From Desulfovibrio oxyclinae DSM 11498 (GTDB lineage: Bacteria; Desulfobacterota; Desulfovibrionia; Desulfovibrionales; Desulfovibrionaceae): DNA of 14,982 nt. The stretch is taken from NCBI RefSeq assembly GCF_000375485.1, contig NZ_AQXE01000002.1, positions 36,275 to 51,256 of the forward strand, in the 5' to 3' direction. Below are positions 1 to 14,982 of this stretch, piece by piece. Under the pieces are notes generated by a model. That model was not told where the DNA came from. It made no database searches and saw only the letters and a list, made by a program, of their open reading frames with translations. Within the stretch, counting starts at the first letter, position 1. Every line of letters begins with the position of its first letter. The position numbers were made by a program, and so were the translations under genes.

Positions 1-45
1 CAGAACCGTGGATTTGCGGCTCAGGGCAAGATCGTTGATGATCAT
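1..45 (-). CDS. RND efflux permease, N-terminal 15 codons only
   Basis: The reverse strand opens at 45 with ATG and reads MIINDLALSRKSTVL to the window edge. This resembles the usual amino terminus of AcrB/MexB-type inner-membrane proton/drug antiporters: a short amphipathic stretch, then basic residues before the first membrane helix. The start overlaps the stop of the adaptor gene by four bases (ATGA), which suggests translational coupling and the standard adaptor-permease stoichiometry. The rest of the gene lies outside the window, so the substrate class cannot be judged. The assignment rests on this short peptide and on position directly after an HlyD-type adaptor. Confidence 0.72.
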   Translation of the reverse strand, partial: MIINDLALSRKSTVL

Positions 46-1103
46 CGCACGTTCACCCGGGTGCCTTCCTCGACTTCGGTGTGGCCGGTGACGATGAGTC
101 TGTCACCCGGTTCAAGCCCTTCGAGGATGCGGGCGCGCTCGCCGCTTATGACGCCCACCTTGACGGTGCGGGCCTGTGCTCTGCCGTCCTTTTCCACGAA
201 CACCAGCCGTTCGCCGCCCTTGTCCAGAATGGCGAAGAGCGGGGCGGTGGTAACCCCCTGCAGCGAGCGGCGCTCGAACGAGGCGCGCGCCAGCATCCCG
301 GGACGGATGCTGTTGTCGTAGTTGGGCACCACCACGCGTACCTTGAAGGTCTTGGTGGCCGCGTTGGCCTTGAAGGCCACGAAGTCCACCACGCCTTTCC
401 AGCGGCGCTCGGGGTAGGCGTCCACGGTCACTTCGACGGGGTCGCCCTTGGACAGGAAGCGCACGTCCATTTCCGGTACGTCAACATTGATGCGGATGGT
501 GTCCACGGCCACGAGGTTGACCACGGGATCGCCGGGGCGCACGTACTCGCCGGGGTCCACGTAGAGGTCGTTGATGACCCCGCCCACCGTGGCGGTGACG
601 AGTCCCTGCTGGTAATTGACGCGGGCTTCCTGAAGGTTGTTGCGGGCCAGGGCCAGGTCGGTGTTGGCCTTGTCCAGCTCTTCGTGGGAAACCACCTTGC
701 GCTTGCGCAGCTTGGCCTTGCGGTCAGCGGTCTTCTCGGCGAGCTCGAAGCTGGCCTGTGCCCGGTTGAGCACGGCCCTGAGCGCGGAGACGTCGATCTT
801 GGCGATGATGTCCCCTGCGGAAACCTCGTCGCCTTCGGTGAAGGCCACGGACTCGACGCTGCCGCCGCGTTCGGCGGAGAGGGTCACGTCGTGGCGCGCC
901 TCGGTCTGGCCGGGCAGGGTCAAGGTGTCCACGATGTTCATGGGGGTGACGGTCTCCACGGTGACGTTGACGCCCGGATCAGGCTTCTCGGCCTTGGGGG
1001 CCTGAGGCTCTTCACCACGAAGGCCGTAGGCCGCGCCTGCGACGACGGCCAGTATCAGGACGAGCGGTATCAGCGTCTTCCTGTTCAGACAGACTCGTTT
1101 CAT
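42..1103 (-). CDS. RND efflux periplasmic adaptor (membrane fusion protein, HlyD family)
   Basis: This 353-aa adaptor would link an inner-membrane RND pump to an outer-membrane channel. A basic start is followed by a hydrophobic segment at about residues 11-27 (signal anchor; no clear lipobox). Next comes a lipoyl-like half (about 70-105, with GGSVESVAFTEGDEVSAGD), a short helical hairpin (about 106-160, rich in Ala/Leu/Arg/Lys) and the returning lipoyl half (GGVINDLYVDPGEYVRPGD). Beta-barrel and membrane-proximal domains finish it (to 353). This order and length are normal for MexA/AcrA-type proteins, with a short hairpin. The start is supported by GGAG seven bases upstream. It lies 21 bp after the TetR gene and overlaps the permease start, forming a three-gene operon. 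Substrates are unknown. Confidence 0.9.
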   Translation of the reverse strand: MKRVCLNRKTLIPLVLILAVVAGAAYGLRGEEPQAPKAEKPDPGVNVTVETVTPMNIVDTLTLPGQTEARHDVTLSAERGGSVESVAFTEGDEVSAGDIIAKIDVSALRAVLNRAQASFELAEKTADRKAKLRKRKVVSHEELDKANTDLALARNNLQEARVNYQQGLVTATVGGVINDLYVDPGEYVRPGDPVVNLVAVDTIRINVDVPEMDVRFLSKGDPVEVTVDAYPERRWKGVVDFVAFKANAATKTFKVRVVVPNYDNSIRPGMLARASFERRSLQGVTTAPLFAILDKGGERLVFVEKDGRAQARTVKVGVISGERARILEGLEPGDRLIVTGHTEVEEGTRVNVR

Positions 1104-3219: not shown

Positions 3220-3582
3220 ATGGATATTACCAAGGCGCTCAAGGACCTCAAGGCGGAGCCGGGATTCAAGGAAAACGTCGGCATGGTGCTGGTTCACAAC
3301 GGCGTGGTGCGCGGCTGGTCCCGCAACGACAGGCAGGACGTGGCGGCCATCGAAATCACCCCGGACCGGGACAAGATGGAAGAAATCCGCAAGGAAATCG
3401 AACAGCGCGAAGGTATCTGGCGCGTGGTATGCCATGCCAATGACGGGCGCATGGAACCGGGCGACGACGTGCTGTTTCTCATCGTGGCCGGAGACATCCG
3501 CGAAAACGTTAAATCCGCGCTGTCTGACCTGCTGGACCGCATCAAGGCCGAGGCCGTGAGCAAGCGGGAAATATTCGCGTAG
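3220..3582 (+). CDS. MoaE-like protein (molybdopterin synthase catalytic subunit family), divergent
   Basis: This 120-aa protein resembles MoaE, which transfers sulfur from MoaD onto cyclic pyranopterin monophosphate to make molybdopterin. It has the HNGVVRGWS segment near 26-34 (R31 in the position of MoaE Arg39), an RVVCHANDGRMEPGDDVLFL core (68-87) and a C-terminal IKAEAVSKREIF (108-119). In this tail K109 and K115 match the two catalytic lysines, although six rather than seven residues apart. It is shorter than E. coli MoaE (150 aa), and the usual HR-G motif reads CHANDGR. GGAGG lies six bases before the start. It heads an operon with an FmdE/MoeA-like fusion and moaA, which supports a cofactor role. 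No moaD is present here. It may have a specialised or altered activity. Confidence 0.75.
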   Translation: MDITKALKDLKAEPGFKENVGMVLVHNGVVRGWSRNDRQDVAAIEITPDRDKMEEIRKEIEQREGIWRVVCHANDGRMEPGDDVLFLIVAGDIRENVKSALSDLLDRIKAEAVSKREIFA

Positions 3583-3622
3583 GCACCTCGTCCTCATCAC
3601 TACACCAAGGAATGACGATCGA

Positions 3623-5248
3623 ATGAACATCGGCGACTACACTTTCGAGGAGTTCAAGGAAAAGGCCCGCGAGTTTCATGGCTACCCCGCTCCGGGGTTG
3701 CTTATCGGCGGCTACATGGTCGAGCTGGCCAAATCGCACATGCCTGAGGGGACCCTTTTCGAGGTCATCGTGGAGTCCCACAAGTGCCTGCCGGACGCCG
3801 TTCAACTCTTGACCCTCTGTAGTACCGGCAACAGCTGGATGCGCGTGGTCAACCTCGGCCGGTACGCCCTTTCCATGTTCGACAAGTACACCGGCGAGGG
3901 CGTTCGCGTGTATATCGACACGGAAAAGATCGAACAGTGGCCCGACATAGCCGACTGGTTCCTGAAACGGACCGCCAAGGCGGATCAGGACACGGACCTG
4001 CTCTTTGCGAAGATCAAGGAAGCCGGCCCCGCCTATACTTCCGTGGAAAAGATCGTCATTCCCGAACACAAGCTGGGCCACAAGCAGATGCGCTCCATCG
4101 GCCTCTGCCCGGCCTGCGGCGAAGCCTACCCCCTCAACGACGGCGCCATCTGCCGTGGATGTCAGGGCGAGGCTCCCTATGTGACCACCGACCAACGCTC
4201 CGCGCCGCTTCTTTCCCCGGACCTTGATGCCGTGGACGTGGAAGAAGCGGTGGGCAAATCCGCTCTGCACGACATGACCCGCATCGTCCCCGGCGAAACC
4301 AAGGGACCGGAGTTCAAGGCCGGGCAGGAGATCACCGCGGGCGACGTGTGCCGCCTTCAGCGCATGGGACGTTCCCGTGTGTTCACGGATGAAGTGGATC
4401 CCGGCGAGGAATGGATCCACGAAAACGTGGCGGTCAAGGCATTTGCGCAGCGCATGGCCGGTGACGGCATCGGGTTCGAGGAAGACCCCTCGGAAGGCAA
4501 GATCGACTTCACGGCCACCTGCGACGGGCTGTTCACGGTCAACCGCGACCAGCTGGAGGCCTTCAATCTGGTGCCGGACGTCATGTGCGCCACCCGGCAG
4601 GGCGAGAGTCTTGTGCAAGGCGGAAAGCGCGTGGCCGGGACCCGTGCCATCCCGCTCTATATCTCTCGCGAGAACTACAGCCGGGCCATCTCCATGCTCG
4701 GCGACGAGCCGCTTCTGGAAGTGAAGCCCCTGCGCCGGGCGAGGGTCGGCATCCTCGTTACCGGTACCGAAGTCTTCAAAGGACTCATCGAGGACAAGTT
4801 CATTCCAATCGTGTCCGGCAAGGTCACCCGGCTCGGGAGCGAGGTCATGACCTCGGACATCGTGCCGGACGATCGTGAGGCCATCGCCGCCTCCGTGACC
4901 CGGATGATCAGCGAAGGGTGCGACCTTATCGTGACGACCGCCGGACTTTCCGTGGACCCGGACGACGTGACGCGGCCCGCGCTGCTCGACGCCGGACTCA
5001 CCGACTATCTGCATGGCGCGCCCATCCTGCCGGGAGCCATGACGCTCACCGGGCGCATCGGGGCCGCTCAGGTGCTTGGGGTTCCGGCCTGCGCTCTGTT
5101 TTTCAAGACCACCAGCCTGGACCTGCTGCTGCCGCGGCTTCTGGCCGGGCTGACCATCACCCGCCGCGACATGGCGCGCATGGCCGAAGGCGGATACTGT
5201 CTGAACTGCCGCACCTGCACTTTCCCGAAGTGTCCGTTCGGCAAATAG
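3623..5248 (+). CDS. FmdE-family / MoeA-like molybdopterin-binding fusion protein
   Basis: This 541-aa fusion probably handles molybdenum or tungsten cofactor. Residues 1-150 are FmdE-like, including ESHKCLPDAVQLLTLCSTGN (51-70). The usual HGH-x-CPG metal site, however, reads HGYPAPG (19-25), so two likely ligands are absent. Residues 161-180 form a zinc ribbon (C162, C165, C177, C180). Residues about 205-370 resemble MoeA N-terminal domains. Residues 374-510 form a MoaB/MogA-fold molybdopterin-binding domain with VTGTEV and GLSVDPDDVT. The tail ends in four cysteines (C526, C529, C532, C537; CX2CX2CX4CP), able to bind a metal or Fe-S cluster. The ribosome site AAGGA is 11 bases upstream. It lies 40 bp after the MoaE-like gene and 9 bp before moaA. 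Probable role: metal insertion or sensing for Mo/W enzymes such as formate dehydrogenase; the exact reaction is unknown. Confidence 0.85.
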   Translation: MNIGDYTFEEFKEKAREFHGYPAPGLLIGGYMVELAKSHMPEGTLFEVIVESHKCLPDAVQLLTLCSTGNSWMRVVNLGRYALSMFDKYTGEGVRVYIDTEKIEQWPDIADWFLKRTAKADQDTDLLFAKIKEAGPAYTSVEKIVIPEHKLGHKQMRSIGLCPACGEAYPLNDGAICRGCQGEAPYVTTDQRSAPLLSPDLDAVDVEEAVGKSALHDMTRIVPGETKGPEFKAGQEITAGDVCRLQRMGRSRVFTDEVDPGEEWIHENVAVKAFAQRMAGDGIGFEEDPSEGKIDFTATCDGLFTVNRDQLEAFNLVPDVMCATRQGESLVQGGKRVAGTRAIPLYISRENYSRAISMLGDEPLLEVKPLRRARVGILVTGTEVFKGLIEDKFIPIVSGKVTRLGSEVMTSDIVPDDREAIAASVTRMISEGCDLIVTTAGLSVDPDDVTRPALLDAGLTDYLHGAPILPGAMTLTGRIGAAQVLGVPACALFFKTTSLDLLLPRLLAGLTITRRDMARMAEGGYCLNCRTCTFPKCPFGK

Positions 5249-5257
5249 CGAGGAATC

Positions 5258-6250
5258 ATGGCCGGTAAACTTCTGGACGCCCATGGCCGCAAGGCCAGCT
5301 ACATGCGGGTCAGCGTTACGGACCGCTGCAACCTGCTGTGCCGCTACTGCGCCAGCAAGGAGCGCGTGTTCATTCCGCATGACCGCATCCTGCGGTACGA
5401 GGAGATTCTGCGGTGCATGGGCATCGCCAGAGAGCTGGGCATCGAGAAGGTCCGGTTCACCGGCGGGGAGCCCTTTGTCCGCAAAGGATTCATGGATTTC
5501 GTGGAAGAAGCCGGAAGGCGCTTCCCGGACCTGACGCTTGCCGCCACCACCAATGCCACCATCATCGGAAAGCATATCGACAGGCTGGCCACCTCGGGCC
5601 TGTCACGCGTGAACATCTCGCTGGATACCCTTGATCGTGATCGCTACCGGCACATGACCGGACGCGACCTGTTTCAGGTGGTTCGCGACAACATTGACGC
5701 CTGCGTGGACGCCGGGATGACCGTGAAGGTCAATGCGGTGGGAGTGCGAGGCTTCAACGACGATGAACTGCCCGCGTTTCTCGAACTGGCCCGGACCCGG
5801 CCGGTGGACGTTCGGTTCATCGAGTTCATGCCCATCGGACAGGACACCGGGTGGAGTGAAGGCTCGGTCTGGACGGCCAGTGATATCATCCGCGAGGCCT
5901 CCGAATTGGAGAAACTGGTCCCCGTGGCCGAAAGACATCGCGGCCCCGCCACCATGTATGCACTGGCTGCCGGCAAGGGGCGGCTGGGCGTCATCTCTCC
6001 GTACAGCAATCATTTCTGCGGTTCCTGCAATCGGCTGCGCTTGACCTCCGAAGGGGACCTGCGTACCTGTCTCTTCTCCGACAGGGTTTTCCATTTGCGA
6101 AAAATCCTCAGACATCCTAGGCTTAAAGATGAGCACGTGGTTCGGGTGGTCCGGACCGCGCTCAAGAGCAAGCCCATCGGGCACGATCTGCTCGCCGCCA
6201 AGCGCGAGCGCGGGGTCTGCTCCACGAAAATGGCCGCCATCGGCGGCTGA
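5258..6250 (+). CDS. moaA: GTP 3',8-cyclase (radical SAM) of molybdenum cofactor synthesis
   Basis: MoaA converts GTP to (8S)-3',8-cyclo-GTP, the first step of molybdopterin synthesis, using SAM and two [4Fe-4S] clusters. The 330-aa product has the radical-SAM motif C24-X3-C28-X2-C31 (DRCNLLCRYC), the SAM-binding FTGGEP motif, NISLDTL, and RFIEFMPIG in the GTP pocket. The C-terminal cluster motif CX2CX13C is present at C254, C257 and C271. The chain ends in the conserved Gly-Gly tail (MAAIGG) needed for activity in the family. GAGGAA precedes the start, 9 bp after the fusion gene, so the two are surely cotranscribed. moaC, which would be needed next, is not in this window. Confidence 0.97.
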   Translation: MAGKLLDAHGRKASYMRVSVTDRCNLLCRYCASKERVFIPHDRILRYEEILRCMGIARELGIEKVRFTGGEPFVRKGFMDFVEEAGRRFPDLTLAATTNATIIGKHIDRLATSGLSRVNISLDTLDRDRYRHMTGRDLFQVVRDNIDACVDAGMTVKVNAVGVRGFNDDELPAFLELARTRPVDVRFIEFMPIGQDTGWSEGSVWTASDIIREASELEKLVPVAERHRGPATMYALAAGKGRLGVISPYSNHFCGSCNRLRLTSEGDLRTCLFSDRVFHLRKILRHPRLKDEHVVRVVRTALKSKPIGHDLLAAKRERGVCSTKMAAIGG

Positions 6251-6299: not shown

Positions 6300-9158
6300 A
6301 TGGCATTCATAACTCGCTTGCTGCGTACGGTGAGAATCCGCACGCGGCTGCTTCTCGGTTTTACGGTACTGCTGACCGCGGCGCTGCTCGCCACCGCCTT
6401 TACGGTCAACACGTTCGTAAGCCGTGTCATCACGAAGGACATCGATCAGGAGCTCCGGAATACCAACCGGACGCTCGTTTCCATGATGGAAGCTGCGGTG
6501 GATGTCTCGGTGCGCAACCATCTGCGGGCCGTTGCCGAAAGCAACCGTCAGGTCGTCAAGGGACTTCACCAGCGTCAGCTTGACGGTGAGTTCACACCCG
6601 AAGAAGCCCGCGCCCGTGCCAGAAAGATTCTGCTAAGCCAGAATATAGGCCAGACGGGCTATCTCTACTGCCTCAACAGCAGCGGACGGACCGTAGTTCA
6701 CCCGCATGAAGAGGTGGAGCACTCCGATACCAGCGATTATTCCTTCGTGCGGCATCTCATGCAGGTGCGGCGCGGATACATTGAATATGACTGGCGCAAT
6801 CCGGACGATCTCAGGCCCATGCAGAAGGCGGTTTATGCGGAATATTTCGCGCCGTGGGACTGGATCATCGCGGCAAGCGCGTACCGTCATGAATTTTCAG
6901 ACCTCATTACAGCGGACGATTTCCGCGACACCTTCGAGTCCCTGCACTTCGGAGAAAGCGGATACGCATTCGTGGTTGACCGTAACGGCGATGTCCTGCT
7001 GCACCCGGACGGCCTGCAGAATATTGCAGGACTCACCGATGAGCGGGGCCAAGACATCGGCTCCAGCATTCTCAACGAGCGAAACGGCATTATTCGTTAC
7101 TGGTGGAAAGGTGGCCCGAACGGCGAGGTGCGCGAAAAATTCGCCATGTTCAAGCATATGCCGGAGATGGGCTGGATCGTTGCTTCCACCGGCTATGTGG
7201 ATGAGGTCTATGCGCCTCTCAGGGAGGTCCGGATACTGACGTACGGCATCTGCGGCGTGACGCTTGTGCTGGTCCTGAGCCTGTGTCTGGCCGTGGCCGC
7301 GTCCATCACCGATCCGCTCGATGAGTTGACCGAAGCGGTGCAACATGCCGAAAACGGGGACTATTCGGTGCGCAGCAACGATACGCACTCGGACGAGATA
7401 GGCAACCTGGCCCGCAGCTACAACCGATTCATGGAGGCGCTCGTCCTGTCTGTCTCCAAGCTCGAAGCGGAGACGGAGTATCGCAAGTTCGAGGCGTTCC
7501 AGCGCCATTTGTTCGAAGAAGTGTTCGAAAACGCGCTGGAGGGCATTTGTATTACGGATCCCGACGGCTCGATCATCGCCGTCAATCCAGCCTTTACCAC
7601 CATCACCGGTTACGCCGAGGAAGCGGTGCTCGGCCACAATCCCAGCGTGCTCAAGTCCGACAGGCACGATGAAGGTTTCTATGCCGATATGTGGCAGAAG
7701 ATTCAGGTGAAGGGACACTGGGCCGGAGAGATCTGGAACCGCCGGAAGAGCGGTGAGGTATACCCCGAGCTCCTGAGCATCAGCGCAATATACGACAGTG
7801 AAGGAAACGTGCGCCACTACGTGTCGGTTTTTCACGACATGACGGACATCAAGCGCAAGGAAGAGCAGCTTTACATGCAGGCGTATCACGACGCGCTGAC
7901 GGGGTTGCCCAACCGCGAGCTGCTTCTGGACCGTCTGGTCATGGCCCTTCGCCATGCGCGCCGTGAGGAATCGGGGGTCGGCCTGTTGTTCATCGACCTG
8001 GATAACTTCAAGAACATCAACGACTCCCTTGGCCATTCCGTGGGCGACGTGCTGCTTCAGCAGGCCGGACAACGTGCCAAGCTGTTCGGCAACCCCGATG
8101 ACACGGTGGCCCGTTACGGGGGCGATGAGTTCGTGCTGTTGGTCAATGACGTGAACGAACGCGACCTCGTGCGGCTTGCCCAGACGCTGCTGGAGGACTT
8201 CCAGAAGCCGTTCCACGTGAACGGACGGGAGATATTCGTCACCACCTCGGTTGGCATGTCGCTCTTCCCTGAAGACGCCGAGGACCCGGAAACGCTGGTC
8301 AGAAATGCGGAAATGGCCATGTATCAGGCCAAAAGCTCCGGAAAAGACAGCTACAGCCTGTTTGCCAAGGAAATGGATGAGCGGATAGCCCGCCGTCTTG
8401 AACTGGAAGGCAATCTGCGAAACGCGTTGCGAAAACGCGAGTTCGTGGTGCACTATCAGCCCAAGGTAGCACTGAGTTCCGGACGCGTGGTGGGCGCGGA
8501 GGCGCTCGTGCGTTGGGCATTGCCGGACGGGACCATGGTCAGTCCGGGAGAGTTCATCCCGCTAGCCGAAGAAACCGGCATGATCGTTCAACTGGGTGAG
8601 CAGGTTCTGGAGACCGTCTGCACCGACATGGCTGAACGCAATTTCCCGGAAGGGTTCAGGGTTTCGGTGAATCTCTCGGCCAATCAGTTCCGGCAGGAAG
8701 ATCTGCTGGGCAGCCTGCGCTCCATTGTCGAGTCGGCAGGCGTGTCGCCGGGAAGGATTGAGTTTGAGGTCACCGAGTCCGTGCTCATGCACGACATCGA
8801 CGAGAATGCCAAAATCCTTCAGCGGCTGGTGGACATGGGCTTCTCCGTGTCCATTGATGACTTCGGCACCGGGCATTCCTCTTTGTTCTATCTCAAGAAG
8901 TTGCCCATCAGCACGCTCAAGATCGACCGCTCATTCGTCCGCGAGTTGGGCAGCAATCCCAGCGACTCCCTGATTGTCCAGACCATTCTGCTTATGGCCG
9001 GCAGTCTGAACCTTTCCGTTGTCGCAGAGGGGGTGGAGGAGCAACAGCAGGCGGACCTGCTCATGCGCTACGGCTGCGGCACGGCTCAGGGATTCCTCTT
9101 CGCCAAGCCGGTGCCGTTCCGTGAATTCCTCGCCCTGATGAAAATCAGGAACTCCTAG
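6300..9158 (+). CDS. Membrane Cache-HAMP-PAS-GGDEF-EAL cyclic-di-GMP enzyme
   Basis: A 952-aa sensor enzyme that could make c-di-GMP (GGDEF) and break it down (EAL). Order: transmembrane helix 18-40; periplasmic tandem Cache sensor (about 41-310, with GYLYCLNSSGRTVVHP and GYAFVVDRNGDVLLHP); second helix about 313-335; HAMP about 336-390; PAS about 402-520; GGDEF about 527-690; EAL about 705-945. The catalytic GGDEF (607-611) is intact. The inhibitory RxxD site upstream reads NPDD, so product inhibition is probably lost. The EAL domain keeps EALVRW (734), TES (826-828), DDFGTG (853-858), KIDRSF and AEGVE, so it also looks active. GAGG lies one base from the ATG, an unusually tight ribosome site, but no better start precedes the first helix. 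It converges on the alginate-type cluster, suggesting it feeds the Alg44 receptor. Confidence 0.95.
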   Translation: MAFITRLLRTVRIRTRLLLGFTVLLTAALLATAFTVNTFVSRVITKDIDQELRNTNRTLVSMMEAAVDVSVRNHLRAVAESNRQVVKGLHQRQLDGEFTPEEARARARKILLSQNIGQTGYLYCLNSSGRTVVHPHEEVEHSDTSDYSFVRHLMQVRRGYIEYDWRNPDDLRPMQKAVYAEYFAPWDWIIAASAYRHEFSDLITADDFRDTFESLHFGESGYAFVVDRNGDVLLHPDGLQNIAGLTDERGQDIGSSILNERNGIIRYWWKGGPNGEVREKFAMFKHMPEMGWIVASTGYVDEVYAPLREVRILTYGICGVTLVLVLSLCLAVAASITDPLDELTEAVQHAENGDYSVRSNDTHSDEIGNLARSYNRFMEALVLSVSKLEAETEYRKFEAFQRHLFEEVFENALEGICITDPDGSIIAVNPAFTTITGYAEEAVLGHNPSVLKSDRHDEGFYADMWQKIQVKGHWAGEIWNRRKSGEVYPELLSISAIYDSEGNVRHYVSVFHDMTDIKRKEEQLYMQAYHDALTGLPNRELLLDRLVMALRHARREESGVGLLFIDLDNFKNINDSLGHSVGDVLLQQAGQRAKLFGNPDDTVARYGGDEFVLLVNDVNERDLVRLAQTLLEDFQKPFHVNGREIFVTTSVGMSLFPEDAEDPETLVRNAEMAMYQAKSSGKDSYSLFAKEMDERIARRLELEGNLRNALRKREFVVHYQPKVALSSGRVVGAEALVRWALPDGTMVSPGEFIPLAEETGMIVQLGEQVLETVCTDMAERNFPEGFRVSVNLSANQFRQEDLLGSLRSIVESAGVSPGRIEFEVTESVLMHDIDENAKILQRLVDMGFSVSIDDFGTGHSSLFYLKKLPISTLKIDRSFVRELGSNPSDSLIVQTILLMAGSLNLSVVAEGVEEQQQADLLMRYGCGTAQGFLFAKPVPFREFLALMKIRNS

Positions 9159-9163
9159 CCAGC

Positions 9164-10465
9164 CTACCAGTAAAGCCCTATTACCTCAGGTGTTTCCGGG
9201 TTCGTTCCGGTTCCTTCAAGATCATACAGCCGCTGGCCTTCACGCCACGGCAGGCTGTGCAGATTCAGCGAAGCGAAATGGCGGCCCAGCACCACTGCGT
9301 CGCTTTCGCGTACCATCGCCTCGGGGTCGGTGGTGAGCATTTCCTCGTAATGAGGCGCCGTCTCCCGAAGGTAGCAGAGGTTCAGGGCGCACAGGTGCTC
9401 CGGGTCCAGCGCCGGATCATAGGCAAGCACCTTCACCCCTTTGCCGCGCAGTTTTTCCGCCAGCTTCAGGAGAGCCGAATCTCGCAGGTCGTCGGTGTTG
9501 GCCTTGAACGCCAGACCGAACAGGCCGACGCTCTTGGGCGAGTGCGAAAGGATGCGTTCCACGAGCTGTTCGACCTGTCGTTCGTTGGATTTTACAACGT
9601 GGGCGAGCATGGGTACATCCACGTACTCACGGCGGCAATAGGCGGTGAGTGCGCCGAGGTCCTTGCCGAGGCAGCTACCGCCGTAGGCAAAGCCGGGCCT
9701 GAGGTATTTGGATGAAATGTTGAGTTTGGTGTCTTCACAGAACATGCGCATGACCTCTCGGGAGTCCACACCCATTTCGGTTCCGGCCAGCCCGATTTCA
9801 TTGGCGAAGGTGACCTTGAGCGCATGGAAGCAGTTGTCGGCGTACTTGAGCATGGCGGCTTCCAGCGGACCACAGTGCAGCACCTGTGCGTCGATGCCGG
9901 GGTACAGGTCGGGGCAGGGGCCCCAAGCGGCATCGTCGCTGGTGCCGAAAACAATTTTGGGTGGTGCAAAGAAATCGGCAACGGCAGTGCCTTCGCGCAG
10001 GAACTCCGGATGCACGGCGTAGGCCAGCGGTTGTCTGTCGCCCAGCACATCGCGCGCCTGCTCCATGATCTCGCGGTGAAAAACCGGCAGGGCAGTAGAG
10101 CGAACCAGCACGGGAACCACGCGCCCCTGATCAAGCCTTGCCCGCATTATTTCCAGCACCACCGAGCGCAGGGTGGAGGCATCGAGGGAGCCGCCGCGTC
10201 CCGATGGAGTGCCGACGCAGACGAAGACGCAGTCAGACTCGCGCACTCCTGACGCGAGGTCCGTGAAGGCTGTGATGCGTCCCTGCGCGGCATGGGTGGT
10301 GACCATGTCGTTCAGTCCCGGTTCCGTGACGGGCACCGCGCCGGCCATCAGGGCTTCGGTACGTGAACGATCCACGTCCATCCCGACGATCTGGTGTCCC
10401 AGTTCCGCCATGCAGCCAACCGTGGTGCTTCCTACGTAACCGAGTCCGACAACTCCGATCCTCAT
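9164..10465 (-). CDS. algD: GDP-mannose 6-dehydrogenase (AlgD type)
   Basis: This 433-aa enzyme oxidises GDP-mannose to GDP-mannuronate with two NAD+, making the precursor of alginate-like polymers. The N-terminal Rossmann fold starts with GVVGLGYVG (residues 4-12). The catalytic cysteine is C265 in PGFAYGGSCLGKDLGAL, and the LKYADNCFHALKVTFANEI helix (206-224) and DDLRDSALLKLAEKL segment (325-339) match AlgD closely. The end LYW parallels the AlgD tail. UDP-glucose dehydrogenase is the alternative family reading, but linkage to alg8 and alg44 favours GDP-mannose. GGAGG lies four bases upstream of the start. It is the last gene of the minus-strand cluster, 55 bp after alg8, and its stop lies 5 bp from that of the convergent GGDEF-EAL gene. 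Confidence 0.92.
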   Translation of the reverse strand: MRIGVVGLGYVGSTTVGCMAELGHQIVGMDVDRSRTEALMAGAVPVTEPGLNDMVTTHAAQGRITAFTDLASGVRESDCVFVCVGTPSGRGGSLDASTLRSVVLEIMRARLDQGRVVPVLVRSTALPVFHREIMEQARDVLGDRQPLAYAVHPEFLREGTAVADFFAPPKIVFGTSDDAAWGPCPDLYPGIDAQVLHCGPLEAAMLKYADNCFHALKVTFANEIGLAGTEMGVDSREVMRMFCEDTKLNISSKYLRPGFAYGGSCLGKDLGALTAYCRREYVDVPMLAHVVKSNERQVEQLVERILSHSPKSVGLFGLAFKANTDDLRDSALLKLAEKLRGKGVKVLAYDPALDPEHLCALNLCYLRETAPHYEEMLTTDPEAMVRESDAVVLGRHFASLNLHSLPWREGQRLYDLEGTGTNPETPEVIGLYW

Positions 10466-10520
10466 GAGTCCTCCATTGAAAATGTGTTATTGTAAGTATC
10501 AGTATTATTGTTTTTTTGAT
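10466..10520 (-). promoter_or_regulatory. AT-rich leader before algD
   Basis: The 55 bp between alg8 and algD are strikingly AT-rich for this GC-rich region and end in a strong GGAGG ribosome site. On the minus strand TTACAATAAC contains a near-consensus TACAAT -10, and TTGAAT overlaps the alg8 stop; the spacing between the two is too long for a standard promoter. An internal promoter or mRNA processing site is possible; no hairpin terminator is evident. Confidence 0.25.
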
Positions 10521-12074
10521 TCAAATTCCAAGGGTGAGTTTGATGAAGTCCCAGGATGGCGGATGCAGGATGCCGATGTATACCAGCACCGCAAAAAAGA
10601 GGCAGAGCACATAGACCAGCGTCAGGTACGACGCGAACAGGTGCTTCAGCCGCCATTTGAGGGTTTCCTCAAAGTTGAGGTGCTGGTCCTTCCTGTTGGC
10701 CCAGCGCTGCATGGGCAGCCTGAAGAGGATGTATATTTTCACGGCGGCCGCCACCAGTTGGTTGGCGTACAGGATGAACGGGAAGGACAGGTCAACGCGC
10801 TTGGCGTAGTAGAACAGGAACATGCTCAGGATCAGCCGTGTGGAGAGAACCCACAGAATGTATGAGGAGAAGAAAACCGGGGAGATGGCAAATCCGGCGG
10901 AGAGCATGGCAAGGGGTCCGCACAGGCTGGTCCACATGGCGATGCGTTGATCCACGATGCACCACCAGATGAACAGTCCCACGCGCCTCGGGCCCAGCGC
11001 AATGGCGCGGGAGCCGTTTCTGAGCATGTTGCCGGACCAGCGCAACAGGTTCTGAATGGCGCGGTCCTTGGGGTCCCCCTCCACCACGTCGATGGTCCAG
11101 ACCAGTGCGTCCGGAATGTAGAGCATGCGCGAGCCCTCCTTGAGCAGCGCATACCATGTGCTTTTGTCGTCCCCGGAAAGAAACCGAAAACGTCCCCACA
11201 GCCAGTGGGAGAGCTGATCCTTTTCGATCATTTCCACAAATTCAGGCCGGAGCACCCGCGATGCGCGAAAGATGCTCATGCGTCCGGTCAGCGTCAGCAC
11301 CCTGCCCGCCAGCGCGTGCGATTGCATGGCGAGGTGGCGCTGGGCGAAGCGAAGGTCAAGCCAGCGCTGCATCCACTTGGGTCCGCGCACCACGCCCATT
11401 TCATCCGTGGTCAGCGCGTGCATGCCCTTGTCGAGATGGAAATGGGGCAGGCAGCGCCGCAGGCATCCGGGCGCGAGGATGGAGTCGCCATCCATGAACA
11501 CCACCGGCGTATCGCCGGCGAGTCCGCGTCGCGAGATGGCCCGAAGCGCCAGCCCGATGGCCACCCGCTTGCCCGGCTGGTTCTGGCGAACGAAGATGAC
11601 TTCGATGTCATCGTTTGGGGCGTGGCGGCTCATGATGGACGTAATGAGTCGCTCGTCGCTGTGATGGCCCGTGCCCACGAAAAGCTTGGCCGGCACACCG
11701 ATATCCCGCGTCTCCTGCACGATGCTGCGCACGACTTTGTCTGTGATGTCGCGTTTTTCGTGAAAGGTGGTCATCATGTAGATGAGACCGTTTGGCCTCC
11801 AGCCGCTGTCCCAAAGGTCTTCCGCCCGGCTTCGCAGCTTGGGGTAGTGCAGTTTGGCATAGATCAGCGAACGCACGAAGTGGGTGAACCACCAGAGGTA
11901 GCGCCACGTCCCCAGCACGCCGAGGATGATGATGACCCGCCCTGAATCGCTGTCCCAGATGTTGTTGGCGATATTCTGAAAGCCGATCAGCAGCAGGCCG
12001 ATAAACACGTACAGCTTGAAATACTGGGCGGGGCTCATGCGCCGCCGTTCGAAGTGGCCAGCCGGTCCGGGCAT
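10521..12074 (-). CDS. alg8: Family 2 glycosyltransferase, Alg8-type polymannuronate synthase
   Basis: This 517-aa inner-membrane processive glycosyltransferase is expected to polymerise GDP-mannuronate. Hydrophobic segments lie at about 20-38 and 47-65. The cytoplasmic GT-A domain (about 95-330) has FMDGDS with metal-binding D195/D197, then RFAQRHLAM and TLTGRMSIFRAS, close to Alg8 of Pseudomonas. GDDKSTWYALL follows (catalytic-base region, 301-311), and LLRWSGNMLRNGSRA (343-357) stands for the Q/RxxRW motif. Several membrane helices follow (about 366-425, 432-452, 481-503). The start at 12074 has CGGAG nine bases upstream and is 3 bp after the alg44 stop, so translation is coupled. M13 is a possible alternative start. 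Activity should depend on Alg44 and c-di-GMP, as in the family. Confidence 0.93.
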   Translation of the reverse strand: MPGPAGHFERRRMSPAQYFKLYVFIGLLLIGFQNIANNIWDSDSGRVIIILGVLGTWRYLWWFTHFVRSLIYAKLHYPKLRSRAEDLWDSGWRPNGLIYMMTTFHEKRDITDKVVRSIVQETRDIGVPAKLFVGTGHHSDERLITSIMSRHAPNDDIEVIFVRQNQPGKRVAIGLALRAISRRGLAGDTPVVFMDGDSILAPGCLRRCLPHFHLDKGMHALTTDEMGVVRGPKWMQRWLDLRFAQRHLAMQSHALAGRVLTLTGRMSIFRASRVLRPEFVEMIEKDQLSHWLWGRFRFLSGDDKSTWYALLKEGSRMLYIPDALVWTIDVVEGDPKDRAIQNLLRWSGNMLRNGSRAIALGPRRVGLFIWWCIVDQRIAMWTSLCGPLAMLSAGFAISPVFFSSYILWVLSTRLILSMFLFYYAKRVDLSFPFILYANQLVAAAVKIYILFRLPMQRWANRKDQHLNFEETLKWRLKHLFASYLTLVYVLCLFFAVLVYIGILHPPSWDFIKLTLGI

Positions 12075-12077
12075 GGT

Positions 12078-13772
12078 TTATTGCTCCGGGCGGGTGCCGC
12101 GCAGGCGGTCCGGATTCGGATTGACCGGGGCGTTGTAGATGTTCTTGCGCGCCTTGTCCGCGTCCCTGATCTCGATGGTTCGCTCGTTTTCAATGCCGAG
12201 CATGGTGAAAATGCCGGAGAACAGTTCCGAGCTGGCGACCCTGCGGAAATTGACCACGGCGGGCAGCCCGGCGGGAACGCTCCTGTTCAGTCCGGGGCGT
12301 TCCGGGTCGTCGAACTCCACGATGGCCACTGCGGAACGGTCCTGGGTGGAGCGCCACTGGAAGCGGCCTTCCATCTCGTTGACGAACCCGGTGGTGCGGT
12401 CGATCATCACCACGCGTCCGTCCACCCTCAGATCCAGTGCCGGGATGAACACAAGCGCGTTGTCGCCCAGCCGGACGTTTTCCACCTCATCCTGCGTGAG
12501 GTACGCGGTGACGAAGCGGTCTTCATGCTCTTCGATCATGGCAATCTGCTCACCGGTCTTCACCGTGTTGCCCACCGTCTTGAACACCTTGACAACGGTG
12601 CCGTCGAAGGGCGCGCGCAGCATGTACTTCTTGAGTTGATCACGCGCCACCTCAAGTCGCTTCTGTTCGATTTCCACTTCCTTTCGGGCGGCATCCACCT
12701 GCGCCTGCAGGGCCAGAGTCTCGCCCTCCACCTGATTTCCGGAGAAGAACAGCCCCTTTTTCAGCGCGTTGTATGCATCCTTTGCAAGCTGAAGTTCTGC
12801 CCGCGCCTCAAGCAGATCACGTTGGATGATCGTGACTCGCTGCTGTTCGCGCTCAACCTCGGAGCGGCTGAGCACGCCTTTGTCCAGCAGTTCCCGCTTT
12901 CTCTCCAGTTCGGCGCGGGCCAGCTGAAGCTCTTCGTTGTAGGTCTCCACCCGGTCCCGGGCAGCTCGCAGGCGTGAGTCACCCACCTTGCGGTAGATGC
13001 CGATGGTCACGTCTTCTGCGGAGAGTCGTTCCCGCAGGTTCTCAAAACGGTGTCTGGCGGCCTCCACCGCAACCTCGGCCATGCGGACGGCCTCCATCTG
13101 CTTTGCATTGTAGAGCATGATGATGGGGTCCCCCTTTTCCACGCGGCCGTCGTCGGGGACAATGACCTTTTCGAGTATTCCGTCCTGAGGGGAAATAAGC
13201 GGCTCAACATGGGCGGAGACCACACCGGAATCCACCTGAACACGGAAGATGGTGGAGTAGAGGGTGATGCCTATATAGATGGTGATGGCAAGGCCCAGCG
13301 TCAGATACACGGCCCCGATGAGCACTCGGCTGATGCGCCGTTTGGTGGGGATCTTTTCGCCCTTGGGCTCGCCGGAGAGTTCGGTAGGTGTCACGGGGGT
13401 GTCGATTCGCCGGATGGCCTCTCCCGCAGTGCCCATCTCCCCGGAGACAAGGCCCTGACTGAAGTAGGCCAGCACCTCGCGGGTGCGCTCATCCATGTCC
13501 ACGAATTCGGTGGCGAGCGTTTTGTTCTCGGAGTCGTAGCGGACCACCCGCGCCTTCTGGTCGAAGGTGATGGCGTAGCCCTGAAAATTGACGGAGACCG
13601 TGCAGTCTATGACCGTGCCGGATTGGAAGGGGCCGTCGATGTCTTCAATCCGGAAGCCGCCCATGGACCAGTCCGCGGACTTGTACTTTTTCTGGCCGAT
13701 CCCGATGGTGATGGGAACGGTGATGCGGTAGTGCATGCGCTGGCTTGGTGCTTCGTGCTTGATGTCGGCCAT
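12078..13772 (-). CDS. alg44: Alg44-type c-di-GMP receptor: PilZ domain plus HlyD arm
   Basis: This 564-aa inner-membrane co-polymerase should bind c-di-GMP and activate Alg8. The cytoplasmic PilZ domain (about 10-105) has the binding motifs RxxxR (R12-R16, QRMHYR) and DxSxxG (D34, S36, G39 in ADWSMGG). A linker and one membrane helix (about 148-172) lead to a periplasmic HlyD-like region. That region has a lipoyl half near 183-222, a long charged coiled coil (about 228-385) and the second lipoyl half with a beta-barrel (386-510). Pseudomonas Alg44 is about 390 aa, so this protein has a much longer arm, as in secretion adaptors. The start fits the family, but the upstream ribosome site is weak. 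It heads the alg44-alg8-algD unit. Confidence 0.93.
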   Translation of the reverse strand: MADIKHEAPSQRMHYRITVPITIGIGQKKYKSADWSMGGFRIEDIDGPFQSGTVIDCTVSVNFQGYAITFDQKARVVRYDSENKTLATEFVDMDERTREVLAYFSQGLVSGEMGTAGEAIRRIDTPVTPTELSGEPKGEKIPTKRRISRVLIGAVYLTLGLAITIYIGITLYSTIFRVQVDSGVVSAHVEPLISPQDGILEKVIVPDDGRVEKGDPIIMLYNAKQMEAVRMAEVAVEAARHRFENLRERLSAEDVTIGIYRKVGDSRLRAARDRVETYNEELQLARAELERKRELLDKGVLSRSEVEREQQRVTIIQRDLLEARAELQLAKDAYNALKKGLFFSGNQVEGETLALQAQVDAARKEVEIEQKRLEVARDQLKKYMLRAPFDGTVVKVFKTVGNTVKTGEQIAMIEEHEDRFVTAYLTQDEVENVRLGDNALVFIPALDLRVDGRVVMIDRTTGFVNEMEGRFQWRSTQDRSAVAIVEFDDPERPGLNRSVPAGLPAVVNFRRVASSELFSGIFTMLGIENERTIEIRDADKARKNIYNAPVNPNPDRLRGTRPEQ

Positions 13773-13866: not shown

Positions 13867-14877
13867 TTAAAACATCGCGAGGATTCGTTCGCCGAACAAT
13901 TTCAGAAAGGTCTTTTCGTCAGCCGCGACGGCACAGCGGCAGCTTGGAATGGCGGGCGCGTCGGTGAGGAAGTTGCCGTCGGGCCGCAGCAGAATGTCCA
14001 TATCCACGCTCATTTCCCGGAAGTGGAAAAGCTCGGGGCGGAATGCGGCGGCAAGGGCCAGCGGGTCATGCAGGTGCATACCGGGGATGCCTCGTTGGGT
14101 CCGGCTCCAGCGGATCCATGGCAGACAGGTCTCGTGCAGGAAGCGGCTGAAGGCGGAGGCTTCGGGGCCGGGAACGGGCAGCGCGTCCTCCGTCAGGCAG
14201 GTTTGCATGGTTACGTTGGCGGGCATGAAGGTCACCGCCGCGCCGCAGTGCAGCACAATCTCCGTGGCTTCCGGGTCGTAGAGGGGGTTGAAGCGAAGCA
14301 CATCGCGCCATATCTCGGGCGGGATGTCCGGGGTGGCGTTCTCCCACTGCTCTTCACCGGGCTCGACCGGCCATGCGCCGCCCATGTGGAAAATCCCGTT
14401 CAGCTCTGCCGCGATTTCGGGGGCCTGTTGCAGCGCAAGCGCGACGTTTGTCAGGGATCCCGTGGCCACGATCACCAGCTCGCCGGGGTGCTTGCGGACG
14501 GCGGCGATGATCACGTCGGCGGCCGATGTGTCGGGCGGGTATTTGTCCGGAATGCCGATGGCAGGGGCGTTATTCCACAGCTCGCATCCGCTTTCGCGGC
14601 GCTTGGCGTCAAGGTGTGCGAAGTGCGGCCACCTGTCGCGCCTGAGCGGGTTGTCCGGTCCCAGCCCGAGGGGAATGTCAGGGCGCTCGGCCAGCATCAG
14701 CATGTGCCGGGTGACCGCGTAAGATTCCCGGGCAAGGCAGTTGCCGGCAGACGCGGTGCAGGCCACAAGCTCCACCTCGGGGGAAGCGAGAGCGAGCGCC
14801 AACGCCAGCGCGTCATCCACATCGGCGGCCGGAATCGAGCAGGCGTTGTCCATGTCGAGCAGAATAGGGAGAGCCAT
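13867..14877 (-). CDS. Inosine/uridine-preferring nucleoside hydrolase family protein
   Basis: This 336-aa enzyme probably cleaves ribonucleosides to base and ribose in purine or pyrimidine salvage, in the cytoplasm. Family features are LDMDN (7-11) and DVDDALALALAL (19-30) for the Ca2+-binding Asp cluster, ATGSLTNVALAL for the second core motif, MPANVT near the active site, and HLHDPLALAAAF for the late His-Asp pair. The normally contiguous DTDPGxDD loop is split here by about seven residues (ACSIPAA), so D21/D22 lie further from D8/D10 than usual. I chose the ATG at 14877 because the family's first strand begins there. The frame is open back to 14970, but that extension would cover a promoter-like region. 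There is no ribosome site, and transcription may begin at the ATG itself. Substrate is uncertain. Confidence 0.85.
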   Translation of the reverse strand: MALPILLDMDNACSIPAADVDDALALALALASPEVELVACTASAGNCLARESYAVTRHMLMLAERPDIPLGLGPDNPLRRDRWPHFAHLDAKRRESGCELWNNAPAIGIPDKYPPDTSAADVIIAAVRKHPGELVIVATGSLTNVALALQQAPEIAAELNGIFHMGGAWPVEPGEEQWENATPDIPPEIWRDVLRFNPLYDPEATEIVLHCGAAVTFMPANVTMQTCLTEDALPVPGPEASAFSRFLHETCLPWIRWSRTQRGIPGMHLHDPLALAAAFRPELFHFREMSVDMDILLRPDGNFLTDAPAIPSCRCAVAADEKTFLKLFGERILAMF

Positions 14878-14883
14878 TGCGGG

Positions 14884-14911
14884 CTTATAGCACGAAACGT
14901 TGATTTGCGAA
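14884..14911 (-). promoter_or_regulatory. Predicted promoter of the nucleoside hydrolase
   Basis: On the minus strand TTCGCA (14911-14906) is followed after 16 bases by TATAAG (14889-14884), preceded by an extended -10 TG. The ATG at 14877 begins six bases past the -10, where the transcript start is expected, so the mRNA may be leaderless. Confidence 0.5.
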
Positions 14912-14920
14912 ACGGTTCGC
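14907..14920. promoter_or_regulatory. LacI/RbsR-like operator upstream of nucleoside hydrolase
   Basis: GCGAA-ACGG-TTCGC is a perfect 5-4-5 inverted repeat. It differs by one base from GCGAAACGTTTCGC, the core of the E. coli ribose repressor (RbsR) site as I recall it. It overlaps the predicted -35, so binding would repress. A second CGAAACG half-site at 14893-14899 lies 15 bp away, in the promoter spacer. A LacI-family sugar or nucleoside regulator is the likely ligand-binding partner, but none is encoded here. Confidence 0.5.
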
Positions 14921-14982
14921 TTGCGGGCGGTCTGTGGCTGCGATACAAGCGCCGCATGCGAATCTGCCATACTGTAAGCTTC

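Follow-up and report, generated by a model that had tools for sequence, protein, structure and literature searches.

A probable c-di-GMP-controlled alginate-type operon with an efflux-adaptor-like Alg44 in a sulfate-reducing relative of Desulfovibrio

Results

We analyzed a stretch of 14,982 nucleotides from Desulfovibrio oxyclinae DSM 11498 (hereafter the window; C2:36275-51256 in a 3.32 Mb genome with a completeness of 99.8%). Three adjacent minus-strand genes in it, alg44, alg8, and algD, probably encode a cyclic di-GMP (c-di-GMP)-controlled, synthase-dependent exopolysaccharide system of the alginate kind that exports its product via the Alg44 adaptor and a TolC-type channel. The alg44-like gene (12078-13772) encodes 564 amino acids with a cytoplasmic PilZ domain, one transmembrane helix, and a periplasmic adaptor with a long α-hairpin, and Pfam assigned PilZ and HlyD-type domains to its product. 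The alg8-like gene (10521-12074) encodes a GT2 polymer synthase of 517 amino acids (PF13641), and the algD-like gene (9164-10465) encodes a GDP-mannose 6-dehydrogenase of 433 amino acids with three UDPG/MGDP dehydrogenase domains in Pfam. Only 3 bp separate alg44 from alg8 and 55 bp separate alg8 from algD, which fits a single operon. The arrangement described in an initial annotation of this DNA was confirmed, with Pfam domains that fit it.

AlgD is predicted to be of the GDP-mannose type, not the UDP-glucose type, based on its best solved match, shared residues, and tree position. Its best match in the PDB was the GDP-mannose 6-dehydrogenase of Pseudomonas aeruginosa (1mfz; 318 bits, full length), while the best UDP-glucose enzyme scored 199 bits over a partial chain, approximately 119 bits lower. 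AlgD carries H, K, L, and N at 1mfz positions 217, 250, 251, and 252, as do all 46 aligned rows from alg8 loci (clustered open reading frames (ORFs) of 400–560 amino acids, the window included, with Salidesulfovibrio brasiliensis present twice and G134 and L017 apparently representing one assembly). These residues are absent from two UDP-glucose dehydrogenase (UGDH) structures and from the UGDH-like paralogue that the host encodes separately. The UGDHs were separated from the rest, with supports of 99/93 and 95/93, in a 51-row tree. A grouping of the dehydrogenase with UDP-glucose enzymes, which the initial annotation had named as an outcome contrary to its proposal, did not occur; AlgD grouped with the GDP-mannose type and carries the insert residues of GDP-mannose dehydrogenases (GMD). 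The UGDH assignment was ruled out by the 1mfz match, these residues, and the tree.

At least 2553 Alg8 homologues were found at E ≤ 1e-3, some of them labelled “glycosyltransferase Alg8” or “mannuronan synthase” by their source. The DxD nucleotide-sugar site (D195-G-D197; 11484-11492, minus strand) and D302-D303-K304 (11163-11171, minus strand) were invariant in 33/33 aligned sequences, the window included. In LLRW (residues 343-346; 11037-11048, minus strand), R345 and W346 were likewise invariant in 33/33, and both leucines vary (LLRW, FRRW, LRRW, and others). We take DDK to be required by P. aeruginosa Alg8 and LLRW to be an Alg8 motif; work on that protein reportedly names residues of the DxD/DDK/LLRW kind. 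The start of alg8 is uncertain, with a second in-frame ATG 12 codons inside.

A quick tree of 91 rows, which included Escherichia coli BcsA and PgaC and no hyaluronan synthase, placed both E. coli proteins outside the Alg8 family (support 100). Searched against the PDB at E ≤ 1, the family profile recovered neither cellulose synthases nor hyaluronan synthases; its sole match was an unrelated chain (E = 0.47). The grouping with cellulose or hyaluronan synthases raised by the initial annotation was therefore not seen, and the GT2 protein appears to be a member of a broad family that carries the Alg8 name and is distinct from BcsA and PgaC. Its motifs, operon partners, and the source names of its homologues fit an alginate core. 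BcsA is likewise a membrane GT2 under PilZ control; however, a cellulose synthase reading was excluded by the tree, by the profile without a BcsA match, and by the location of PilZ and GT2 on separate chains, and the operon differs further in its GDP-mannose-type dehydrogenase.

The c-di-GMP-binding PilZ domain of Alg44 (residues 11-103; 13464-13742, minus strand; PF07238) appears intact, with RxxxR (R12, R16) and DxSxxG (D34, S36, G39) motifs. R12, R16, W35, and G39 were invariant in 45/45 aligned Alg44s, position 34 was D, N, or Q, and position 36 was mostly S. The predicted fold superposed on the PilZ domain of P. aeruginosa Alg44 with a root-mean-square deviation of 1.8 Å. A transmembrane helix was predicted at residues 151-169 (13266-13322, minus strand) by a hydropathy scan, and the structural model has a helix at 143-176. 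Alg44 thus combines PilZ, transmembrane, and membrane-fusion parts with c-di-GMP motifs, as in an alginate core, and the motifs and fold support the c-di-GMP control suggested by the initial annotation. P. aeruginosa Alg44 has 389 amino acids.

The predicted structure of the periplasmic part contains a lipoyl domain and a long α-hairpin (residues 223-381; 12630-13106, minus strand; model helices 223-297, 303-338, and 352-381). The aligned span of the hairpin was 161-162 residues in 43 of the 45 Alg44s, which are 24–35% identical to the window protein, except for S. brasiliensis (70%). The predicted tip holds an RLS-type motif, R291-x3-L295-x6-S302 (12867-12902, minus strand); across the 45 sequences, 44 have the R, 42 the L, and 34 an S or T at the third position (S in 21). 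Of the 163 hairpin columns, R291 and L295 alone are conserved in more than 39 of 45 sequences, as a docking contact predicts. The complete R-x3-L-x6-S motif occurs at the tip in 19/45, compared with 23 matches over all 6772 hairpin windows of the same sequences, and full R-L-S is present in 9/9 Desulfovibrionaceae Alg44-type proteins. It was also found in an AcrA-like adaptor of the same window (42-1103) and not in the HlyD-like and CusB-like adaptors of the host. The RLS motif has been located at the tip of RND and MacB pump adaptors, from which HlyD deviates (PMC8277102). Alg44 shares the lipoyl and long α-hairpin fold and the RLS tip with the efflux adaptors EmrA, MacA, and AcrA; in contrast to these, it has a PilZ sensor on the cytoplasmic side and is encoded beside a glycosyltransferase, not a pump. 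Given the near-fixed hairpin length and the efflux-type tip, we propose that the hairpin may dock to a shared TolC-type channel, which is the least certain step of our scheme. The idea that the hairpin substitutes for AlgK was not supported: mean length was 161.2 where a Sel1 (AlgK-like) gene was called in the locus (14 homologues) and 161.6 where none was called (31), a split that is blurred by truncated contigs and missed ORFs.

No Pfam match to the AlgK, AlgG, AlgX, AlgL, AlgE, or acetylation families was found among 18 scanned window ORFs, as the initial annotation had noted for the genes in its view. The AlgE family (PF13372) had no match in the host genome or in the genomes with the S. 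brasiliensis, GWA2_65_9, and MM_PC operons. In a survey given for 50 of the 80 loci described below, for which genome completeness was not told, 31 of 49 carrier genomes also had none. As the named control genomes include no Pseudomonas, the carriers that did match serve as the reference for the absence of AlgE; this absence supports the different export route proposed at the outset. The AlgX/AlgJ family (PF16822) had no host match, but no control genome matched either; in G134, the PF16822 model recognizes a protein encoded downstream of algD. The host has TolC-family matches at three sites (C1:306721-307974 and loci on C9 and C14), and a further weak match may fall inside an adaptor; none of three scanned neighbors of the C1 gene was a pump or adaptor.

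Two further observations bear on exporters. A planctomycete carrier has two AlgE-family matches (G180:C44:33247-35528), which would lie inside the L053 stretch if the contig is the same. Locus L137 (1116-12001) encodes an HlyD-like adaptor, a PAS-HD domain protein, a TolC-family protein, and a 1658-residue ORF running off the stretch, and may be a c-di-GMP-linked adhesin exporter.

Gene neighborhoods were scored by tblastn for 80 relatives among the matches listed. Alg44 lies upstream of alg8 in 76 of them (63 within 400 bp), and in the remaining four a contig ends within 1.2 kb of alg8. With at least 2553 Alg8 homologues, such pairing is not chance. The gene order that the initial annotation called reversed does start with alg44, unlike in Pseudomonas, but these counts show that alg44 before alg8 is the rule among the relatives compared. 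AlgD lies directly downstream of alg8 in 24/80 and within the locus in 52/80. The closest relative of the operon is that of S. brasiliensis LVform1, which is also the nearest named relative of Alg8 among the matches listed. Its order is identical, comprising a nucleoside hydrolase gene, alg44 (71% identity), alg8 (85%), algD (73%), and a convergent GGDEF-EAL homologue that consists of two ORFs. Among 149 genomes drawn from the family, eight had an Alg8 match at E ≤ 1e-20, three of the window type and five of another type. A 395-genome phylum draw, in which fewer candidates were scored per genome, gave a match in the window's own genome only.

This patchy spread, with three window-type carriers among 149, would suit a complete alginate operon that was gained by horizontal transfer and has since decayed or fallen silent. 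We consider that reading very improbable, since all three frames are open with their invariant motifs kept, order and neighbors are conserved in S. brasiliensis, and reduced cores recur in other genomes. The base composition of alg44, alg8, and algD is also that of the window; therefore, any transfer was not recent.

A homologue of the alginate lyase family (PF05426) directly precedes alg8 in 13 of the 80 listed loci, related sulfate reducers included, and Pfam confirmed the PF05426 match for L013, L017, and L078. In L017, L048, and L078, as in the family members G110 and G134, the lyase-family domain is fused to Alg44 in one open frame. Most rows of the lyase domains keep an NN..TH segment followed by an R..L.Y..Y segment, which we infer to form the active site. 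These genes bear on the identity of the polymer. The substrate specificity of Alg8 is unreadable from sequence and its family is broad, so that a guluronate-epimerised, mixed mannose/mannuronate, or polyglucuronate chain could be made in place of plain polymannuronate; yet the GMD-type residues of the dehydrogenase, the separate UGDH-like gene of the host, and the lyase-family homologues beside alg8 make a different uronic polymer unlikely. As to precursor supply, the host has two PF01050 matches, and the one that was scanned is of the full ManC/AlgA type.

The window ORFs include no AlgL, and the host has one unlinked lyase-family gene (L107:9391-10575), which lies near ABC transporter permease genes, a GNAT gene, and an integrase gene. 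Its best solved matches were 3nfv and the 8bdq series, which we presume to be PL38-type Bacteroides enzymes. We dropped this gene as a part of the system: among the 10 same-genus genomes listed, the window's own included, 8 carry such a gene, and 7 of the 8 lack an Alg8 match.

The host encodes DsrA (619 bits, above the curated cut-off, with a weaker match adjoining). It is judged on this gene to be a sulfate reducer, and by the affinity of its Alg8 to be a member of the family of Desulfovibrio, as the initial annotation had suspected. Convergent with algD and downstream of the operon lies a plus-strand gene for a Cache-HAMP-PAS-GGDEF-EAL protein (6300-9158; 952 amino acids), with domains assigned by Pfam and GGDEF and EAL motifs present by eye. 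Upstream of alg44, a minus-strand nucleoside hydrolase gene (13867-14970; PF01156) serves as a flanking marker and is not thought to be part of the polymer system. Molybdenum cofactor genes occupy 3220-6250 (MoaE, an FmdE/zinc-finger/MoCF-type protein, and MoaA), and 42-2773 contains the AcrA-like adaptor gene with the RLS tip, a CecR/TetR-type regulator gene, and a LytB (IspH-type) gene. In stretch L009, a 1034-residue ORF comes after the AcrA-like adaptor group and is probably the pump. A search of the window for RNA families, tRNAs, and promoters gave nothing notable.

Other Alg8-type arrangements were also observed. In 5/149 family genomes, an Alg44-type adaptor is encoded next to an Alg8-like synthase that bears a fused right-handed β-helix at its C terminus, approximately 900 amino acids in all (L110:7131-11353, L111:8245-12133, L112:7280-11496, L113:6702-10960, and L114:7743-12009). 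Pfam matched PilZ in the three adaptors of L112-L114, and no AlgD homologue was found among the called ORFs of these loci, which are partial. The β-helix part was matched by 46 proteins, most of approximately 900 amino acids and some named Maridesulfovibrio, Halodesulfovibrio, or Pseudodesulfovibrio. A model of the fusion (predicted local distance difference test score 88.5) fits hyaluronan synthases, and its helix fits polysaccharide lyases and mannuronan C5-epimerases. In alphaproteobacterial loci such as L044:11625-17660, alg44-alg8 is followed by SGNH-like, Sel1, and MBOAT genes and by a gene for a 650-residue protein with no Pfam match, an apparent acetylating variant. The c6 gene of these loci was ruled out as an AlgE porin, as its sequence has an SGNH-like GDSR motif; it had no Pfam or PDB match. 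In G134 (L109:4169-8366), an EF-hand protein and a protein with GDSL and ALGX domains are encoded downstream of algD, a possible acetylation module.

Discussion

We propose the following scheme, which is drawn from residues, homology, and predicted folds. AlgD would oxidize GDP-mannose to GDP-mannuronate, and Alg8 would polymerize the latter to a polymannuronate-type chain and move it through the inner membrane. Binding of c-di-GMP to the PilZ domain of Alg44 would switch Alg8 on, and the convergent GGDEF-EAL protein is, by its position, a candidate local source or sink of c-di-GMP. The EmrA/MacA-like periplasmic hairpin adaptor of Alg44, replacing AlgK/AlgE, would most likely bridge to a TolC-type channel shared with other pumps.

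The canonical operon of Pseudomonas and Azotobacter is algD-8-44-K-E-G-X-L-I-J-F-A (PMC3815931), and its components are also described in PMC9734138. The present operon has in common with it an AlgD-type GDP-mannose dehydrogenase, an Alg8-type GT2, and an Alg44-type PilZ-transmembrane-adaptor protein with c-di-GMP motifs. It differs in the order alg44-alg8-algD, in the lack of algK/G/X/L/I/J/F among the scanned window ORFs and of an AlgE-family match in the genome, in an Alg44 extended by its long hairpin, and in its anaerobic, sulfate-reducing host. Deep-sea bacteria have been reported to carry “atypical” alginate operons that lack algKE or modification genes (Bundalovic-Torma 2020, PMC7112194); the loss of outer-membrane and modification loci and the rearrangement are common to these and the present operon. 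The absence of algKE, which the initial annotation had pointed out here, was already known from other alginate operons. In its accessible part, that report names no sulfate reducer and offers no export mechanism; our analysis adds the hairpin length, the RLS tip, and the lyase fusion.

Several observations weigh against our reading. On the side of synthesis, the lyase-family gene of the host lies away from the operon and is widespread in the genus even where Alg8 is missing. The Desulfovibrionaceae dehydrogenases form their own clade beside, not inside, the 1mfz branch, in a tree that carries a long-branch warning. The Alg8 comparison set contained no Pseudomonas Alg8, so that orthology to the P. 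aeruginosa protein is only indirect. In addition, the Alg8-like domain of a relative's modelled fusion protein best fits hyaluronan synthases and then BcsA in fold comparison; such likeness is expected of processive GT2 enzymes, and the fold alone therefore cannot reveal the sugar. On the side of export, a PF13372 match is present in 18/49 carrier genomes, the absence of AlgK and AlgG covers the 18 scanned window ORFs, and we saw no linkage between the operon and a TolC-family gene. An RLS-like tip is likewise present in the 14 homologues whose loci include a Sel1 gene; S/T302 is more frequent where this gene is missing, but not significantly so (26/31 vs 8/14, p = 0.07), nor does full R-L-[ST] separate the groups (23/31 vs 8/14, p = 0.31).

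The export observations leave room for another exit, in which the same synthesis core delivers its polymer to an unlinked non-TolC exporter (a divergent AlgE-like protein, a BcsC/PgaA-like TPR porin, or a Wza-like protein) and the RLS-like tip was simply inherited along with the adaptor fold. Synthase systems employ a TPR protein and a β-barrel porin (PMC9734138), and the presence of hairpin and tip at 14 Sel1-gene loci among 45, together with the unlinked TolC-family genes, would agree with this exit. However, the host lacks a PF13372 match (the BcsC, Wza, and TPR-porin families were not searched for), and the tip R and L are the only hairpin columns above 39/45. We consider a non-TolC exit plausible, though not probable, and favor export through the Alg44 adaptor and a TolC-type channel.

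We found no published report of alginate synthesis genes in sulfate reducers, most subscription journals lying outside the search. As far as our literature searches show, four points are new: an alginate core in sulfate reducers whose use of GDP-mannose is supported by individual residues, a lyase domain fused to Alg44 within this family, an RLS-tipped hairpin whose length hardly varies, and the occurrence of the operon in a dolomite model strain. That strain is S. brasiliensis LVform1, the type strain (= JCM 12178; strain identity and genome accession in PMC9174804). It has been used in studies of microbially influenced dolomite formation, in which a net-like exopolymer was assumed to give nucleation sites (PMC6491731), and its cell-surface carboxyl groups were reported to rise with salinity (PMC6422947, citing another work). 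A bolder proposal, which we regard as speculative and somewhat unlikely as a whole, is that in this clade Alg44 acts as a genuine tripartite adaptor, taking mannuronan from Alg8 to a general TolC-family channel via the RLS hairpin, and that the carboxyl-rich polymer of S. brasiliensis is the dolomite-nucleation matrix.

If this were true, a polysaccharide synthase would borrow the efflux duct of the cell instead of AlgK/AlgE. An exopolysaccharide co-polymerase with an RLS tip suggests a connection, open to testing, between synthase-dependent secretion and efflux-type tripartite assembly. The operon supplies candidate genes through which sulfate reducers could form an acidic matrix that binds metals, and the role of a single defined polymer as the driver of the mineral effect becomes testable through one gene.

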